Shown piece after piece: positions 1,717-34,681 of a stretch of 64,000 nt of DNA; position 1 is the stretch's first letter; every line of letters begins with the position of its first letter. The notes under the pieces are model-generated. The model was not told where the DNA came from. It did no database searches and saw only the letters and a list, made by a program, of their open reading frames with translations. A program made the translations under genes and the position numbers. This stretch comes from Roseibium algicola. GTDB lineage: Bacteria; Pseudomonadota; Alphaproteobacteria; Rhizobiales; Stappiaceae. The stretch lies in the NCBI RefSeq assembly GCF_001999245.1, contig NZ_CP019630.1:1922001-1986000 (forward strand). Direction: 5' to 3'.

Positions 1717-2670
1717 ATGATTTCCAGACGCCGTTTCCTGCAAACCTGTGGCATCGCAATGCTGGGTGCCGTTTCCGCTCCTGCCTATGCGATTGGCGTT
1801 GAGCCTTTTCGGCTCAGCCTGAAGCATTATCACCTGACGCCTCCACGATGGCCCAGAGGGCTGAAACTGAAAGCCGCGCTGATAGCCGACCCGCATGTCT
1901 GCGATCCCTGGATGGGGCTGGAGCGGGTTCGCTCCATCGTCCGGCAGACCAACGCTCTGAAGCCCGACATCATCCTGATGCTGGGCGACTATGTGGCCAG
2001 CCACAAATGGCAATACGACCCGATCCCGCCACAGGCGTGGGCTGATCTCTTCGGTGATCTGTCGGCCCCGCTCGGGACCCACGCCATTCTCGGCAATCAC
2101 GACTGGTGGGACGACGCGGACGCGCAGCTGACTGGCGGTGGGCCGACCAGATATGGTCAGGCGTTGCTGAACGCCGGCATTCCCCTTTTCCAGAACCGGG
2201 CTCAACGGTTCGAGAAGGACGGCCAGGCTTTCTGGCTTGCCGGCGTCGACGACCAGCTGGCGCTGAGACCGCACCGCAAGATCAAGCGGCACCGCTGGAA
2301 AGGTTTGGATGACCTGACCGGCACGCTTGCCCAGGTGACGGACGATGCGCCCGTGCTGCTGATGGCACATGAGCCCGACATCATCCGCGAAGTGCCGGGC
2401 CGCGTCAGCCTGACGCTCAGCGGTCACACCCATGGCGGGCAAGTCAACTGTTTCGGCTACAAACCGGCCTTTCCCAAACGCAGCGTCAAAAGCTACGCCT
2501 ATGGCCACATCGTTGAAACGGAAGGGACGAAGCTGGCAAGGCATCTGGGCCTTGAAACGGAGCCCCGCCACCTCATCGTTTCCGGAGGTCTTGGCTGCTC
2601 GATCCTGCCGGTCCGATTCGGTGTTCCTCCGGAAATAACGGTGGTGCATCTGGGAAGCACCACCGCTTGA
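1717..2670 (+). CDS. Tat-exported metallophosphoesterase (YkuE-like)
   Basis: A 317-residue calcineurin-like phosphoesterase. A twin-arginine signal (SRRRFLQT, residues 3-10) precedes a hydrophobic stretch, so the protein is exported folded. The metal-binding motifs appear in order: DPH (58-60), GDY (90-92), GNHD (126-129), the MAHEPD His at 218, and GHTHGG (236-241). Related YkuE-type proteins are periplasmic phosphodiesterases or phosphatases for cell-envelope substrates; the substrate here is unknown. It stands alone, convergent with the cation-efflux gene. Confidence 0.85.
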   Translation: MISRRRFLQTCGIAMLGAVSAPAYAIGVEPFRLSLKHYHLTPPRWPRGLKLKAALIADPHVCDPWMGLERVRSIVRQTNALKPDIILMLGDYVASHKWQYDPIPPQAWADLFGDLSAPLGTHAILGNHDWWDDADAQLTGGGPTRYGQALLNAGIPLFQNRAQRFEKDGQAFWLAGVDDQLALRPHRKIKRHRWKGLDDLTGTLAQVTDDAPVLLMAHEPDIIREVPGRVSLTLSGHTHGGQVNCFGYKPAFPKRSVKSYAYGHIVETEGTKLARHLGLETEPRHLIVSGGLGCSILPVRFGVPPEITVVHLGSTTA

Positions 2671-2692
2671 GTCATGTTCTGGCAAGGGCGAA

Positions 2693-3331
2693 TTATTCAG
2701 CCGCCACTTCGTGCTCCGTCTTGTGCCGGTATTCCTTTATGGCCTGGCTCAGGATCTGGACCGAGGAACTGACGAAGAGAGCCGCCATGAGACCGGCGAC
2801 AATCAGGTCCGGCCAGGCGCTTGCCGTTCCCCAGACACCGGCAGCCGCCAGCATGACGGCGACGTTGCCTATGGCATCGTTGCGCGAACACAGCCAGACG
2901 GAGCGCACATTGGCATCACCATCCTTGTATCGGACCAGCAGCAGGACACTGGCAAGGTTTACGGCCAGCGCCAGAAAGCCGATGGAGCCCATCACCGCGG
3001 CCTGCGGTACGCCAAGCACGAATACCTGATAGAGCGTGGTGGCAGCCACCCAGACGCCCATCAGAAACAGGCTTGTGCCCTTTGCAAGCGCGGCCAGGGC
3101 CCGGGTCTTCAGCGATGCGCCAATGACAGCCAATGATATGCCGTAGGTGACCGCGTCGCCGAAGAAATCGAGGGCGTCGGCCTGCAGCGCCTTTGAGCCG
3201 GCTGCCTGGCCGGCAATCATCTCGACGATGAACATGCCACCGTTCAACGCGATCACCAGCCAGAGCCGGCGGCGATAGTCCTTCGACATTCCGTCAAATG
3301 TTCCGTGGGAATGTCCGCAACAGGCACCCAT
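2693..3331 (-). CDS. Cation diffusion facilitator family transporter, short form
   Basis: A 212-residue inner-membrane metal/proton antiporter with about six TM helices. The metal site is visible as Asp52/Asp55/Asp59 in the DALDFFGD segment of TM2 and Asn150-Asp151 in TM5. The N-terminus carries a Cys/His cluster (CCGHSHG, residues 4-10) likely to bind metal. It lacks the C-terminal cytoplasmic domain of most CDF proteins (usually about 300 residues), as in other short MerR-linked members. It is transcribed divergently from a MerR regulator whose operator lies in the shared promoter, so metal-induced efflux is expected. Confidence 0.88.
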   Translation of the reverse strand: MGACCGHSHGTFDGMSKDYRRRLWLVIALNGGMFIVEMIAGQAAGSKALQADALDFFGDAVTYGISLAVIGASLKTRALAALAKGTSLFLMGVWVAATTLYQVFVLGVPQAAVMGSIGFLALAVNLASVLLLVRYKDGDANVRSVWLCSRNDAIGNVAVMLAAAGVWGTASAWPDLIVAGLMAALFVSSSVQILSQAIKEYRHKTEHEVAAE

Positions 3332-3374
3332 GACGCACTCCTTGTTCGAGTCGCTTGATTTTCGGTTCCTGTCC

Positions 3375-3405
3375 CTTGTAATTGCTATAGCGACTAGAGC
3401 TTCAA
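3375..3405 (-). promoter_or_regulatory. MerR-type promoter/operator of the efflux gene
   Basis: On the minus strand a -35 TTGAAG (3400-3405) and -10 TACAAG (3375-3380) are separated by 19 bp, the over-long spacing that MerR-family activators correct by DNA distortion. A near-perfect dyad CTATAG-CGA-CTAGAG (3385-3399) fills the spacer and resembles heavy-metal MerR operators. The regulator gene starts at 3416 on the other strand, so it probably also controls itself. Confidence 0.85.
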
Positions 3406-3415
3406 GAGGCTTTTT

Positions 3416-3835
3416 ATGGATTTTTCAATTGGTGACCTTTCAAGACGGACCGGCGTGAAGGTTCCGACGATTCGCTATTACGAAAAGGAAGGCCTGCTGG
3501 AAGCGCCGATCCGCAGCGAGGGCAACCAGAGGCGCTACCGGCCCTGCGACCTGGAAAGGCTTGGCTTCATCAAGCATTGCCGCGACCTCGGCCTGCCAAT
3601 GCCGGCCATCCGCGATCTGATAGACCTCAGCCAGCATCCGGACAAACCGTGCGAAACCGCCAACCGGATTGCCGAAGATCAGTTGAAGGCAGTGCGCCAG
3701 CGGATTGCCCACCTGCGCAAACTGGAGGCGGAATTGAAGCGCATCGCAAAAAGCTGCGAAGGCGACCACACGGTGACCGAATGCAACGTTCTGAAGGCTT
3801 TCGGCGACCATGGCCTCTGCCTGAAGGAGCACTGA
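3416..3835 (+). CDS. MerR family metal-responsive regulator (PbrR/CadR class)
   Basis: A 139-residue MerR protein: winged HTH at residues 1-70 (TIRYYEKEGLL and NQRRYR signatures), a dimerisation helix at about 80-112, and a metal-binding loop. Cysteines at 79, 114 and 123 have the spacing of the three thiols of the PbrR/CadR lead/cadmium sensors; Cys135 and the C-terminal His are extra candidates. It has an AAGAGG ribosome site. Lead, cadmium or zinc is the likely inducer, inferred from cysteine spacing and the divergent CDF efflux gene. Confidence 0.88.
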   Translation: MDFSIGDLSRRTGVKVPTIRYYEKEGLLEAPIRSEGNQRRYRPCDLERLGFIKHCRDLGLPMPAIRDLIDLSQHPDKPCETANRIAEDQLKAVRQRIAHLRKLEAELKRIAKSCEGDHTVTECNVLKAFGDHGLCLKEH

Positions 3836-3934
3836 CACGCCTTTTTGCCCGGCTTCAGGCAAGCATTGTCCAGTCCCGTGTCTCCCCTACGGCACGCATG
3901 TTCGTTCCGGTGGCAGCCGCCAGGGAATGTGCTG

Positions 3935-5473
3935 CTAGCTTTCGTCTATCGGTCTTGGTCCGGCGCCTGAGCCGAGTTCCGTTGCCATCACCGTTCCCCC
4001 TAGCCTTTCCAGGCGCATCATTGTCCAGCGTTTGGCAGGCAGATTACAGGAATGACGGCCCAGAATGCAGGAGAACTGGAGGACGTGGGGATAGTCGTTC
4101 TTCGGCCAAACCCTTTCAGCAACGTCATGCCTGCCCTTCAGGTAGCCGAGCAGGGTATATTCGCTGACATACCAGACGTCGCCTTCCTTCAGGTCTCCCA
4201 TACTGGTCGGCCGCCCCTTGGGAAATGTGCCTCCCCAAGTCCAGGACAGGGCACCGGACGTTTTCTGATCTAGAAAATGGTGGGCCATCGTTTCGTCGAT
4301 AAAGACCCGCTTTCCATCCGCCAGATCCTGCCGGTAGGCCTCGACCACAGCTTGCCTGTTCGGCAAAGGTTCCGACAGCACATAGAAAACGATGAAGTTG
4401 GAGGAAAGCGCCAGCACCAATGCGGCGCAAAGGCCAAGCTTCACCCTGTGCCAGCGGTCTTTCAACAGCACGTCGACCGCCAGCAGAAACAACATTGCGG
4501 CCGCAAGATTCCGGATCAGCGGCCGGTCATGCACGAAGGCGCCGAAGAATTGTCCAGCGGCAAGGCAAAAGCCGATCATCCCGGCAGTGCGGGACTTGCG
4601 GAAAACAACCCAAGATACGCCTGCAAACATGGCAGCCCGGAAGATCGCTTCCACATTGAACTTGCCGGAGCCATGTGACCGGCTGGAGTGATAGGCGATC
4701 TGCCGGAAGAACTCGGCGAACTCGAAGTTCACCGAGACCGCAAACAGGGCAACGGCAATCGCGAGGGCGACAAGGCCTTCACTCAGCACACGAACGAGGC
4801 TTGCCTGCCGTGTCCTGAGCCTCCAGATCTGAAGAACGGCAATGACGCCAACACTCCAGGCAAGCATGGACAGTGCAGTCAGCGGAGCAATTCCCAAAAG
4901 CGCGGTACCCGCAACGGCGGAAACAGTTTCCGGACCGGTCTGCCGCGTGTCACCCGTACCTGCCCTGACTGCAACCGGCAGGACCAGCAGCAGCCCGAGC
5001 ATCCAGATGAATGAACCCGTCAGTTCCAGCCGGAAGCCGGAAACGACATACATGGGCGCAAAGATCAACGGTGTGAAAAGCGCAGCGGTGCGAAGGTTCA
5101 ATCTGAGGCAGAACACCACGAAGACCAGGCTGGTTGCCACGTAACAGAGGAATTCGAACAGGACGATTGTCGCGGTGCTGATCCCGGCGGCTTTCAAAAA
5201 CCATCCGGACAGAATGAAATGAAGCCTTGGCTGGAGATGATAGGATTCCAGCCCCGGGAACTGGACCGCAAGAAGGGGATTCAAGTGACGGCCCGTTTGC
5301 GCAAATTCGGATGCCCACGGAATAAAGAAGAGGTCATCCACGTAGGGAATGGTTCGCTCCGGCCAGAAAAACACCAGGCCGCAAACCAACGGCAATACGC
5401 CCCCTGCAACGACTGGCAGCCAGCCGCGGGTGAGATTCAGATTTTGATTGTTGCCCCGTTGCCTTTCAAGCAA
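3935..5473 (-). CDS. Polytopic membrane protein, possible GT-C type glycosyltransferase
   Basis: A 512-residue protein with roughly ten to twelve hydrophobic helices. The first periplasmic loop after TM1 carries adjacent acidic residues (YVDD, Asp46-Asp47) and an aromatic/His-rich stretch (residues 70-85), the arrangement of the catalytic loop in GT-C glycosyltransferases of the PMT/ArnT type. The C-terminal ~100 residues form a soluble domain with a CILGRHSC segment. No close family is recognised, so the glycosyltransferase role is inferred from topology only. It is monocistronic, flanked by short intergenic regions. Confidence 0.6.
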   Translation of the reverse strand: MLERQRGNNQNLNLTRGWLPVVAGGVLPLVCGLVFFWPERTIPYVDDLFFIPWASEFAQTGRHLNPLLAVQFPGLESYHLQPRLHFILSGWFLKAAGISTATIVLFEFLCYVATSLVFVVFCLRLNLRTAALFTPLIFAPMYVVSGFRLELTGSFIWMLGLLLVLPVAVRAGTGDTRQTGPETVSAVAGTALLGIAPLTALSMLAWSVGVIAVLQIWRLRTRQASLVRVLSEGLVALAIAVALFAVSVNFEFAEFFRQIAYHSSRSHGSGKFNVEAIFRAAMFAGVSWVVFRKSRTAGMIGFCLAAGQFFGAFVHDRPLIRNLAAAMLFLLAVDVLLKDRWHRVKLGLCAALVLALSSNFIVFYVLSEPLPNRQAVVEAYRQDLADGKRVFIDETMAHHFLDQKTSGALSWTWGGTFPKGRPTSMGDLKEGDVWYVSEYTLLGYLKGRHDVAERVWPKNDYPHVLQFSCILGRHSCNLPAKRWTMMRLERLGGTVMATELGSGAGPRPIDES

Positions 5474-5631
5474 AGCATCTCCTGCCTTTTGTTGAAATGC
5501 ACCACCCCTGACAGGACAACACTCTAGCGCATTAGTTGCAGATGCGCGGCATTTTTTACGTTTACTTGCAGAACTTCAAACTTGAATGGCGTCTGCCGGT
5601 CCGCAGGACGGCCGATCCAACAAAAATGTTA

Positions 5632-5658
5632 CGGGGCACCCAGCGACCGGATGCCCCG
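5632..5658 (-). terminator. Probable terminator of the lpdA end of the TCA cluster
   Basis: CGGGGCA (5632-5638) pairs with TGCCCCG (5652-5658). Read on the minus strand the stem is followed by TAACATTTTTG, a modest U-rich tail, 35 bases after the lpdA stop. Confidence 0.6.
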
Positions 5659-30685: not shown

Positions 30686-31876
30686 ATGCATCCATTAAGC
30701 GACATATCTACCGCGGCCGCGCCCGCCTATGCCCGACGTGCGGACTATCTGCCGGCGCTGGTCAAGCGGCTCGATCTCTTCAAGAGTGAAGCGCACCGGT
30801 ATCTGCTGGTGGCGCATCTGTTTGACGACACAAGGCGCATGATCGATGCGCTGGAAGGGGTCATGGATTTCGATGCAATCATCGGCATCCCGTATTCCTC
30901 CGGCAGTGATGTGACACGGCTGAAATGGCAGGCCGTATACGGCGACAAGGTCCAGTGCCCGAAGACCGAGCCAGAATTCAAAGAGGTCCTGGCCAACGCC
31001 TTGCAGAAGAGCCTGGATGCCTGCCTGGCCTCCGACCAGAAGCTCGTCATTCAGGAAGTCGGCGGTTATGCCGTCGAATTGCTGCACGAGCGGTTTCAAG
31101 ATCAGCTGCACCTTGTCGAAGGCGTGGTGGAGATCACCAAGCAAGGCGTGTGGCGGGCCGGGCAGACGCGGCTGCGGGTGCCTGTGCTCCACTGTGCCGA
31201 CAGCGAGCTGAAGCGCCTGGAAGCGGTACGTTGCGGCGAGACCATTGCCCGGTGCCTGGATGGGCTCATGCGCGATCTCGGCAACTCCCTGGCCGGCCGG
31301 CACGCTGCTGTCTTCGGAGCAGGCTGGATCGGGTTCGGCGTGGCCAAGGCCCTGCGCCGGCTGGATGTCATCGTCTCGCTGATCGATGTCGACCCGCTGA
31401 AAATCGCAGAAGCAAGGTTGTCAGGTTATCCGGCGACCCTTCATCCCACGGATCTCGAGCAATGCGACCTGGTTGTCGGGGCGGCAGGGCGCTTGTCGAT
31501 AACCCGGGACGTGTTGCAGCAGCTTCGCAACGGCTGCCTGGTGGCGAGCGCCAGTTCCCGGCGGATCGAAATCGACGTCGATTTTCTGGAACAGTCGCCA
31601 GCCTGCGACATTCATCCGTCGATCAAGGCTTTCCAGCTTCCCGGTCAACAGGGGGCGGACAAGCAGATCTGCCTCGTCAACGACGGCTACCCGGCCAATT
31701 TCATTCCCGGCTCCGGCAGCGTTGCCGATGAAGTGGTCGAGCTGATCCTCGGCGAACTGATCGTGCTGATGGCCGACCTGACCACCTACACCTACGAACC
31801 CGGCATTCACCGCTTGGCGACAGAAGGAGAGGCAGTGTGCACCAAACTCTGGATCGAACAGAGAGACCAGACCTAG
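30686..31876 (+). CDS. S-adenosylhomocysteine-hydrolase-like NAD-binding protein
   Basis: A 396-residue protein whose layout follows SAHH: an N-terminal domain, VVEITKQGVWR (150s) where SAHH has EETTTGVxR, HCADSELK (169-176) where SAHH has NVNDSVTK, then a Rossmann NAD loop GAGWIGFG (211-218) with Asp234 at the end of beta2, and a C-terminal NDGYPANFIPGSGSVADEVVELILGEL helix. The SAHH Lys is kept (Lys176), but the catalytic Asp and the later His of NIGHFD are replaced, so it is not an ordinary SAHH. The next gene, a methyltransferase, starts inside its 3' end. Confidence 0.75.
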   Translation: MHPLSDISTAAAPAYARRADYLPALVKRLDLFKSEAHRYLLVAHLFDDTRRMIDALEGVMDFDAIIGIPYSSGSDVTRLKWQAVYGDKVQCPKTEPEFKEVLANALQKSLDACLASDQKLVIQEVGGYAVELLHERFQDQLHLVEGVVEITKQGVWRAGQTRLRVPVLHCADSELKRLEAVRCGETIARCLDGLMRDLGNSLAGRHAAVFGAGWIGFGVAKALRRLDVIVSLIDVDPLKIAEARLSGYPATLHPTDLEQCDLVVGAAGRLSITRDVLQQLRNGCLVASASSRRIEIDVDFLEQSPACDIHPSIKAFQLPGQQGADKQICLVNDGYPANFIPGSGSVADEVVELILGELIVLMADLTTYTYEPGIHRLATEGEAVCTKLWIEQRDQT

Positions 31877-32661
31877 CGGATGATGAGCAATCCGAAGTTA
31901 CTGTCCATTCGCAGTATCTGGTCAAGAAGCTCGCGAACGCCCAGAGAAACCTGTACGGAACGGTGAAGTTCGACATTGTCGCCCGCACCATCCGGGACTG
32001 GGCACAAGACCTTGGTCGGCCGCCGCGTATTCTCGATATCGGTTGCTCGACCTCGATTTCGAAAGAATATCTCGCCGACACCGGCCTGGATTTCGACTAT
32101 TGCGGTGCCGATTATGAAGCGGCGTTCGAACCGGACATCGTGCTGGATGCCACCCGTCTTTCCGAACACCGCGACGACCTTCCCTGGCAACCGGATGTGA
32201 TCGCCCTTCTGGACGTGCTGGAGCATCTACCAGGCCGTGGGCCGGCGATCGAATCCGTGATGCGTCAATGTGGTGAGGTCATTGCGCCGGGTGGACTGAT
32301 CCTAGCCGTGGTCCCGCAGCTTTACCGCCTCGACCGGCTGAAGCTGGGCCACCTGCACTACGCCGAGCACCAGGTCCGCATGACCTTGAACGAATGGTCG
32401 GAGATCATCGGCCGCGCGGTCACGATCGAGTCGGTGCACGGCATCGGCTATCTCTCGTGCCTGCCCTATCTGCCGATGCTCAGCCCCTGGTACGAGGAAA
32501 CCAACCGCCACGGGAAACTGTTCCACCACCTGCGCGGCAAGACCTTCGAATGGGGTCCGCTGAAACCCGCTGAAATCGCCCTTACCCGCACGCTTGGTCG
32601 TGTTCCCGGGTTCAGGGGCTGGTGCAACAGCTCGCTTCTGGTGTGCCGGGCGAAGGTGTGA
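31837..32661 (+). CDS. Class I SAM-dependent methyltransferase
   Basis: A 274-residue methyltransferase. Motif I is RILDIGCST, motif II-like acidic residue in YCGADYE, motif IV VIALLDVLEHLPG and GGLILAVVPQ. Start GTG 31837 has AAGGAG seven bases upstream and overlaps the SAHH-like gene by 40 nt, indicating translational coupling. The C-terminal half (LKLGHLHYAEHQVRM, FHHLRGKTFEWGP) gives no substrate. The methyl acceptor is unknown; pairing with an SAHH-like protein suggests a shared pathway. Confidence 0.82.
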   Translation: MHQTLDRTERPDLADDEQSEVTVHSQYLVKKLANAQRNLYGTVKFDIVARTIRDWAQDLGRPPRILDIGCSTSISKEYLADTGLDFDYCGADYEAAFEPDIVLDATRLSEHRDDLPWQPDVIALLDVLEHLPGRGPAIESVMRQCGEVIAPGGLILAVVPQLYRLDRLKLGHLHYAEHQVRMTLNEWSEIIGRAVTIESVHGIGYLSCLPYLPMLSPWYEETNRHGKLFHHLRGKTFEWGPLKPAEIALTRTLGRVPGFRGWCNSSLLVCRAKV

Positions 32662-33835: not shown

Positions 33836-34681
33836 TCAGGCAGAGAGCTCAAAGACCATGTTGTCATTCGTCTGGCCGGTTACCCCGTAGCCGCGGTTTG
33901 CCAGTTCACTCAGGCAATCCTCGGTCCAGTAGGGCCGGCAATTGGTTTCAAGCAGGATCACGCGGGGCCAGAGGCTCCGGTCCGCGTGCCTCAGGAAAGG
34001 CAGGACCACACGGTCCTCAAAGCCTTCCACATCAACTTTCAAAACATCGATCCGGGTGAGGCCCTGATCGTCGGCTATGGCCGTCAGCGGACGAACCTTC
34101 ACGAAGGTCGGTGTCCAGTCGCCAGCCCACTCGCCGGTGGTCAGGTCCTTCACGAAGGTGGCAAAGCCGCAGTTGCTCGGTTCCTGCCACAGTGGCAGCG
34201 TATCGTCGCGCGGGCCAACGGCTGAATTGACCACCGTAACGGTGTCCAGGTCGTTTGCACGTACGTTGAAACCGAGCTTCGTTGCCGTCTGCGGGTTGGC
34301 CTCGATCGCAACAACCTCCGCGCCGAGACCGGCGGCAAAGATCGAATAGGAGCCGATGTTGGCGCCGATATCGACAAACACCTTGCCCTTGCCCAGATGC
34401 GGTTCGATCAGCTTGTGTTCTTCGCGCTCCGGCAGGCGGCCCTTGGCCAGGATCTTGCGGTCGTCATAGTTTTCACCCGGATAGATCCGGAACTTCAGAC
34501 CGTCGGCTTCCAGGTCGTAGGGGCCCTTGAAGAACCGCGCTACCAGGGAGCGGATACGCTTGCGCAGGCCCTTGGAAAGGTCGTGCCGGTCGGCAAGACG
34601 CCAGGCAGCCCGGACCATCCGCTCGGCGGGATATGTGCCGAACGGACTTCTCGTGTCCAAAAGGGTTGCCACCTGGCTCAC
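33836..34681 (-). CDS. FkbM family SAM-dependent methyltransferase
   Basis: A 281-residue methyltransferase. [30 protein letters not shown] is the FkbM-type SAM site, and [19 protein letters not shown] is the second diagnostic motif. FkbM proteins O-methylate sugars or natural products. The gene starts 12 bp after sdhA and ends 59 bp before sdhB, so it must be cotranscribed with them. There is no evident mechanistic link to succinate dehydrogenase. An N-terminal segment (1-60) is helical and basic. Confidence 0.9.

Follow-up and report, generated by a model that had tools for sequence, protein, structure and literature searches.

The S-adenosylhomocysteine hydrolase (SAHH) fold and the idea that it can be re-used for other purposes are already known. 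AHCYL1 and AHCYL2 combine an SAHH-like fold with a non-SAHH role, and we know of no methyltransferase partner of either. For the canonical enzyme (AhcY/SAHH; TIGR00936; PF05221 and PF00670), residue roles have been described in mouse: the 3'-OH is contacted by Thr157 and Lys186, the 2'-OH by Glu156 and Asp190, and the 5'-OH by His55, Asp131 and His301; Lys186 is responsible for acid-base chemistry at the 3' oxygen, Asp131 operates at C4' and His55 activates water (PMC4647836). AgmF, an NAD-dependent dehydratase from the angustmycin A pathway, uses self-recycled NAD to dehydrate angustmycin C, and has and needs H56, D129, K184, D188 and H299; in the portion of its description used here it is said not to recognise SAH, and no fused or coupled methyltransferase is mentioned (PMC8599513).

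Here we analysed a 64,000-nucleotide stretch of the 6.65 Mb genome of Roseibium algicola, called the window in the following. It contains a gene for a putatively NAD-binding SAHH-like protein (30686..31876, stop included, plus strand; 396 aa) with a full SAHH fold and a rebuilt active site. This gene overlaps by 40 nt (31837..31876, plus strand) with that of a class I SAM-dependent methyltransferase of the Methyltransf_23 family (31837..32661, plus strand; 274 aa). The layout of both reading frames, including the overlap and the GTG start of the methyltransferase, agrees with a preliminary description of the locus, which had also pointed out a strong ribosome-binding site; by eye, this site reads AAGGAG (31824..31829, plus strand) and is located 7 nt ahead of the GTG at 31837. 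An overlap of 40 nt is likewise present in the comparison loci L003, L004, L005, L044 and L045, and one of 4 nt in L006, L007, L008, L046 and L047, the start codons in these loci having been picked mechanically.

One flank of the pair carries genes for methionine sulfoxide reductase, two glyoxalase-type proteins and CreD, the other sdhB-, FkbM-methyltransferase- and sdhA-type genes. As these nearest neighbours are all encoded on the minus strand, the pair forms an isolated plus-strand operon. The FkbM-type methyltransferase gene (33836-34681, minus strand; PF05050, 50.3 bits) lies between the sdhB- and sdhA-type genes, and the order of this cluster is kept in L003, L004 and L005. A search for RNA control elements gave one weak Rfam match (ryfA, 22.5 bits as compared to a gathering score of 80), and a promoter and terminator scan yielded numbers near those of shuffled sequence. 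A suspected repeat downstream of the methyltransferase gene was discarded, its pattern being present once in the window. Among named records, those of Roseibium aggregatum IAM 12614 and Stappia sp. BW2 come closest to the SAHH-like protein, with 92% identity each. Both genes are under purifying selection, with dN/dS values of 0.06-0.20 in ten comparisons, five per gene.

The SAHH fold spans the whole length of the SAHH-like protein, which matches PF00670 with 54.4 bits, and the NAD-binding glycine loop G211-A-G-W-I-G216 (31316..31333, plus strand) is intact, as had been claimed at the outset. G211, G213 and G216 are present in 115 of 115 family rows, as is an acidic residue (D or E) after beta-2 at the position of D234. 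From the loop and its neighbouring residues we infer that the protein would bind NAD; a caution comes from the positions of Thr158 and Thr159 of SAHH, which are occupied by K and Q in all 115 rows. The C-terminal Lys/Tyr tail, which in SAHH clamps the NAD of the neighbour, is absent, the last residue of the model aligning with human residue 405. Since archaeal and some bacterial SAHHs also lack this tail (PMC13406329), its loss alone does not exclude an SAHH. With NCBIfam ahcY (TIGR00936) the protein scores 92.6 bits, as compared to a curated cut-off of 497.6. Furthermore, an AhcY with the catalytic residues is also encoded in the genome of the window, and 14 of 14 further genomes that were checked have an AhcY relative at a site distinct from the pair. 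An ordinary SAHH, the outcome against which the preliminary description had set its proposal, or a duplicated one was rejected because of the score far below the ahcY cut-off, the replaced catalytic residues described below and the presence of the separate AhcY. Most likely, the protein belongs to an SAHH-fold family that has lost hydrolysis and is unnamed in the libraries searched. The protein searches scored about 8000 candidates each, and one of them gave the best 120 of 248 matches, so that family sizes are lower bounds.

For the analysis of the active site, a profile alignment of the SAHH-like protein to five true SAHHs was used together with a larger alignment containing 115 family rows (P0001-P0102, P0109-P0111, nine loci and the window), some of which are near duplicates or fragments. 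Three fusions, seven distant relatives and five canonical SAHHs were counted apart, and the fragment P0116 was left out. The equivalents of the catalytic His55 (H44, codon 30815..30817, plus strand; H in 108 of 108 rows scored, gap in seven), of Thr157 (T151) and Lys186 (K176), both invariant in 115 rows, and of Asn346 (N338, codon 31697..31699, plus strand; N in 113 of 113 rows scored, gap in two) are kept. The place of Asp131, the acid/base at C4', is taken by V125 (codon 31058..31060, plus strand; V 112, I 1, C 1, gap 1), and by cysteine in all three fusions. In the segment E149-I150-T151-K152-Q153 (31130..31144, plus strand), which corresponds to E155-E156-T157-T158-T159 of SAHH, Thr157 is retained and Glu156 lost (I 94, L 18, V 3). 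The segment from K176 to E179 (31211..31222, plus strand) begins with the Lys186 equivalent and ends with an invariant glutamate one place before the position of the lost Asp190 (A 102, G 13); E179 might stand in for Asp190 and take over part of its role, including 2'-OH binding. In the molecular gate Gly300-His301-Phe302, the last two residues are replaced by S291-R292 (31556..31561, plus strand), with S in 115 of 115 rows at the first position and R (101) or K (14) at the second. The adenine contacts are changed as well, Thr57 to F (100) or Y (8) and Glu59 to D (108), each with a gap in seven rows. The column of His353 is uncertain by one place between the alignments; in the one used, His does not occur in any family row. 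Thus, both alignments bear out the earlier claim of a replaced catalytic Asp (Asp131 to V125) and His (His301 to S291); the two retained catalytic residues H44 (His55) and K176 (Lys186) had been absent from its list.

As compared to SAHH, the protein therefore has other conserved residues in place of Asp131, Glu156, Asp190, His301 and Phe302, changed adenine contacts and no C-terminal Lys/Tyr tail. When read against the residue roles known for SAHH, these states indicate that the redox half of the site is kept, whereas the 2'-OH contacts and the half that serves elimination/hydrolysis have disappeared, which supports the proposal of a non-canonical, non-hydrolysing SAHH relative. That the residue states are fixed or nearly so in 115 rows and dN/dS is low is more than chance, and the strong conservation shown by most of the newly introduced residues favours a new activity over decay. 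The preliminary description had further suggested that the protein may oxidise or transform a nucleoside or the methylated product. The changes of the adenine-contact side chains and of both 2'-OH contacts speak against an ordinary adenosine-type substrate. With the acid/base residue Asp131, the His301 that serves to eliminate and add water, and both 2'-OH contacts gone, the protein is most likely an NAD(H)-dependent oxidoreductase acting on a small molecule other than SAH.

Removal of SAH or of a close analogue by a changed mechanism, by which the protein would ease product inhibition of the methyltransferase, would be in keeping with the SAHH fold and the physical link to a SAM-using enzyme. 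We nevertheless consider it very unlikely, since Asp131, Asp190, Glu156 and His301 are all replaced, the score is far below the ahcY cut-off, and another AhcY in 15 of 15 genomes checked already covers SAH removal; in the related enzyme AgmF, mutation of the equivalents of Asp131, Asp190 and His301 abolished activity (PMC8599513). A dehydratase of the AgmF kind, acting on a methylated nucleoside, also appears improbable. AgmF does provide a precedent, being an SAHH homologue in another use that does not involve SAH (PMC8599513), and the change from polar to hydrophobic at both 2'-OH contacts could accommodate a 2'-O-methyl or 2'-deoxy sugar. However, only the equivalents of H56 and K184 are retained in the SAHH-like protein, while the other three of the five residues essential in AgmF are lost, and the adenine contacts are changed (T57 to F/Y, E59 to D). 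In addition, no nucleoside-biosynthesis genes were recognised among the listed neighbours, judged from the first 60 residues per ORF and few family searches. An oxidoreductase that has kept the redox half of the site is the preferred assignment.

The partner protein passes the Pfam cut-off for Methyltransf_23 (35.5 bits, cut-off 27) and has the Rossmann fold of class I enzymes. D67, G69 and C70 of its SAM motif ILDIGC (32029..32046, plus strand) are invariant in 12 sequences. Its fold matches are generic class I only, so that the fold does not indicate the substrate. With class I proteins of the Methyltransf_23 type (UbiG, CmoM, glycine N-methyltransferases) it shares 14% identity, and unlike these it carries a signature of its own, VPQ-YRLDR-K--HL-Y-EH--R----W. 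One genome (G035) contains, about 2.8 kb from the intact pair, a second and broken piece of the methyltransferase (C1:4708850-4709191, minus strand; residues 151-264, 77% identity, one stop).

The two genes are adjacent in 19 of 21 loci (the window and L003-L022), and this in either order: alphaproteobacterial loci have the SAHH-like gene first, Granulosicoccaceae and cyanobacterial loci the methyltransferase gene. Exceptions are R. denhamense (L009) and a cyanobacterial, possibly incomplete Leptolyngbyaceae MAG (L016), where a methyltransferase of the pair type was found neither nearby nor elsewhere in the genome (E <= 1e-15; 12 of 14 genomes positive). Co-occurrence across genomes had been suggested as a check of the pair, and the genes did not turn out to be rarely together. 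Among 61 Roseibium-centred genomes, the SAHH-like gene is present in 11 and the methyltransferase gene in 10, with both in 10 and neither in 50. In 48 genomes of the Granulosicoccus family, all 13 carriers of the SAHH-like gene also have the methyltransferase (E below 1e-100); two genomes contain a weak methyltransferase relative only (E 1e-38 to 1e-39) and 33 have neither. A strong methyltransferase match is absent from the 50 non-carriers of the first and the 35 of the second set. As the genomes are related and do not represent independent events, these counts and the corresponding Fisher p values (1.2e-10 for the Roseibium-centred set, and 5.2e-12, or 5.4e-10 if the weak matches are counted, for the Granulosicoccus family) overstate the evidence. 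According to their coordinates, the two genes are direct neighbours in each of the 23 double carriers. In one carrier, G699, a second SAHH-like copy lies on a different contig and lacks a methyltransferase match. R. denhamense (L009 / L048, G028) has retained only the SAHH-like gene of the pair, and its CreD gene is found downstream instead of upstream, which suggests a local rearrangement. Together with the cyanobacterial MAG and the additional copy in G699, this means that the SAHH-like protein may also serve a purpose independent of the methyltransferase.

In broader samples, the pair seems to be rare and its distribution patchy. It was found in at least 1 of 385 alphaproteobacterial genomes, namely that of the window, in at least 2 of 345 genomes of the Rubrimonas family, both already known from the relatives search, and in at least 3 of 242 genomes of the cyanobacterial class, two of them already known and one a distant relative; these are lower bounds, as the best 4 to 7 first-look candidates per genome were scored. 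The order of Myxacorys gave 2 of 42 genomes, both already known.

In three proteins the two parts are joined in one chain, the SAHH-like part preceding the methyltransferase: P0112 from Chrysophaeum taylorii (736 aa), P0113 (721 aa) and P0115 (709 aa). A source is named for P0112 only, and an algal origin of P0113 and P0115 is a guess from their linkers. Each fusion is a candidate single protein, for which one continuous message is predicted. In the tree, their SAHH-like parts fall within the clade of the window protein (100/99), the internal order of which is partly unresolved, and the canonical SAHHs form a separate clade (100/100) on a long branch. The C. taylorii culture is reported to have contained Roseibium species (PMC10366177). 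Since none of the bacterial loci seen has the genes fused and P0112 has a glutamine-rich linker, simple contamination is unlikely. Furthermore, the divergences of the partner proteins correlate with r 0.90 over 22 pairs that include related genomes and are not independent events, and none of 2000 permutations gave a value as high. Overall, the near-perfect co-occurrence, the adjacency with swapped order and the fused proteins support the proposed two-gene system. A pair kept together in distant bacteria and joined in an alga probably represents a small undescribed pathway.

The main rival explanation regards the SAHH-like protein as a catalytically dead partner subunit, which senses NAD(H), SAH or another ligand and thereby switches or stabilises the methyltransferase. 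AHCYL-type proteins, which are regulators in animals, offer a parallel; several catalytic residues are lost, and the gene overlap and the fusions suggest physical contact. We regard such a role as possible but rather unlikely. The equivalents of Lys186 and Thr157 are invariant in the 115 rows and in all three fusions, and that of His55 is present wherever scored, which would be unexpected if only binding mattered; in addition, R. denhamense keeps the SAHH-like protein without a methyltransferase.

Some loci contain a possible third component. A PAS-PAS-GGDEF-EAL gene is located beside the SAHH-like gene in 10 of 11 assessable Granulosicoccaceae loci (present in L012, L013, L015, L017, L021, L022 and L040-L043, absent from L014; L019 and L039 end too soon to be counted). 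In L010 (Rubrimonas) and L011 (a Rhodobacteraceae MAG), the pair has a gene for a PAS-PAS-histidine kinase as its neighbour. The PAS parts of both kinds of neighbour are related, with 30-38% identity over 221-351 aligned residues. A Pfam scan of six of the ten GGDEF-EAL proteins gave passing scores for GGDEF and EAL in each of them and PAS model matches in five; for L041, which had no PAS model match, the PAS part rests on the alignment. These genes (L010:6146-7900, L011:6147-7703, L012:9163-11271 and relatives) represent a PAS-PAS sensor family with exchangeable outputs, either histidine kinase or GGDEF-EAL, which adjoins the pair in two lineages. Of 36 genomes searched, 32 contain members of this family; the three cyanobacteria have none, and 8 of 9 genomes that lack the pair do have them. 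The genome of the window has a relative at a distance of about 350 kb, and for five genomes of Granulosicoccaceae (G448, G449, G457, G708 and G718) the better PAS-PAS match is a copy that does not adjoin the pair. Occurrence away from the pair and in genomes without it makes the adjacency suggestive only and weakens the case for a fixed third component. If the pair produced or degraded a small signal molecule that PAS-PAS sensor proteins recognise, this would account for these neighbours and their related PAS parts, but such a role is doubtful given this wider distribution; no PAS-PAS gene was seen beside the pair in Roseibium or cyanobacterial loci, and where it is a neighbour, the sensor may only control expression.

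Beyond the family, AHCYL1 and AHCYL2 (3mtg, 3gvp) share 20-22% identity with the SAHH-like protein in the structural match. A wider SAHH-like clade comprises P0103, P0104, P0105, P0114, P0117, P0119 and L038; these seven distant rows all keep the equivalents of His55, Lys186 and Asn346 and have Ser at His301, and two carry the source name adenosylhomocysteinase. P0103 (672 aa), placed in this clade by search and tree, has an SAHH-like C-terminal half with 30% identity to the window protein, and differs from the window pair by a fused SAVED sensor domain (98.3 bits) instead of a methyltransferase. SAVED domains occur in CBASS effectors, so that anti-phage defence may include an SAHH-like effector. 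In the cyanobacterial L038, the distant SAHH-like gene (572-1846) is followed by a stretch (2230-5642) with a gene for an ethylene-receptor-like (ETR1_N) histidine kinase and, overlapping with this gene, a long ORF, which by eye looks like a second sensor kinase. For the pair itself, no PADLOC defence family matched either protein at E <= 0.01. A phage or mobile origin was rejected: 22 pattern matches in viral contigs gave no relative by tblastn, three matches in phage records covered at most 57% of the query (two annotated as ahcY, one record without annotation), and six in plasmid records were all under 31% identity. Of the four plasmid stretches retrieved, the annotated L050 and L051 have many hypothetical proteins and no named methyltransferase, and none was recognised by eye in the ORF list of the unannotated L049; L052 likewise carries no annotation. 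Among the matches listed from titles and abstract starts of the open-licence PMC literature, no description of the family, the pair or the fusions was found; within this scope, the alternative active site, the methyltransferase partner and the fusions are apparently new.

In our proposal, the pair would be a self-contained two-enzyme module that combines NAD-dependent oxidation or reduction of a hydroxyl with methylation of the same molecule, in either order; we give this even chances. The SAHH-like protein would bind NAD+ and oxidise (or reduce) a secondary hydroxyl via Thr151 and Lys176, with His44 nearby, and the conserved Ser291-Arg/Lys292, Glu179 and Glu185 would provide new contacts. The translationally coupled methyltransferase would act on the same molecule before or after the redox step, working in contact with the SAHH-like protein or fused to it. 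More speculatively, and with little confidence, the pair could be a minimal two-step synthase, with redox chemistry on an SAHH scaffold followed or preceded by methylation, for an undescribed small signal or cofactor-like molecule. In some bacteria this molecule would be read by PAS-PAS sensors whose outputs are exchangeable (histidine kinase or c-di-GMP enzymes), and algae could have obtained the synthase from an operon of alphaproteobacteria and turned it into a single fused enzyme.

The module is now known in alphaproteobacteria, gammaproteobacteria and cyanobacteria, and in fused form in an alga, and marks a defined and testable two-enzyme pathway. The identity of its substrate would show how the scaffold of a hydrolase such as SAHH is converted to another use, and could bring to light a metabolite common to bacteria and algae.
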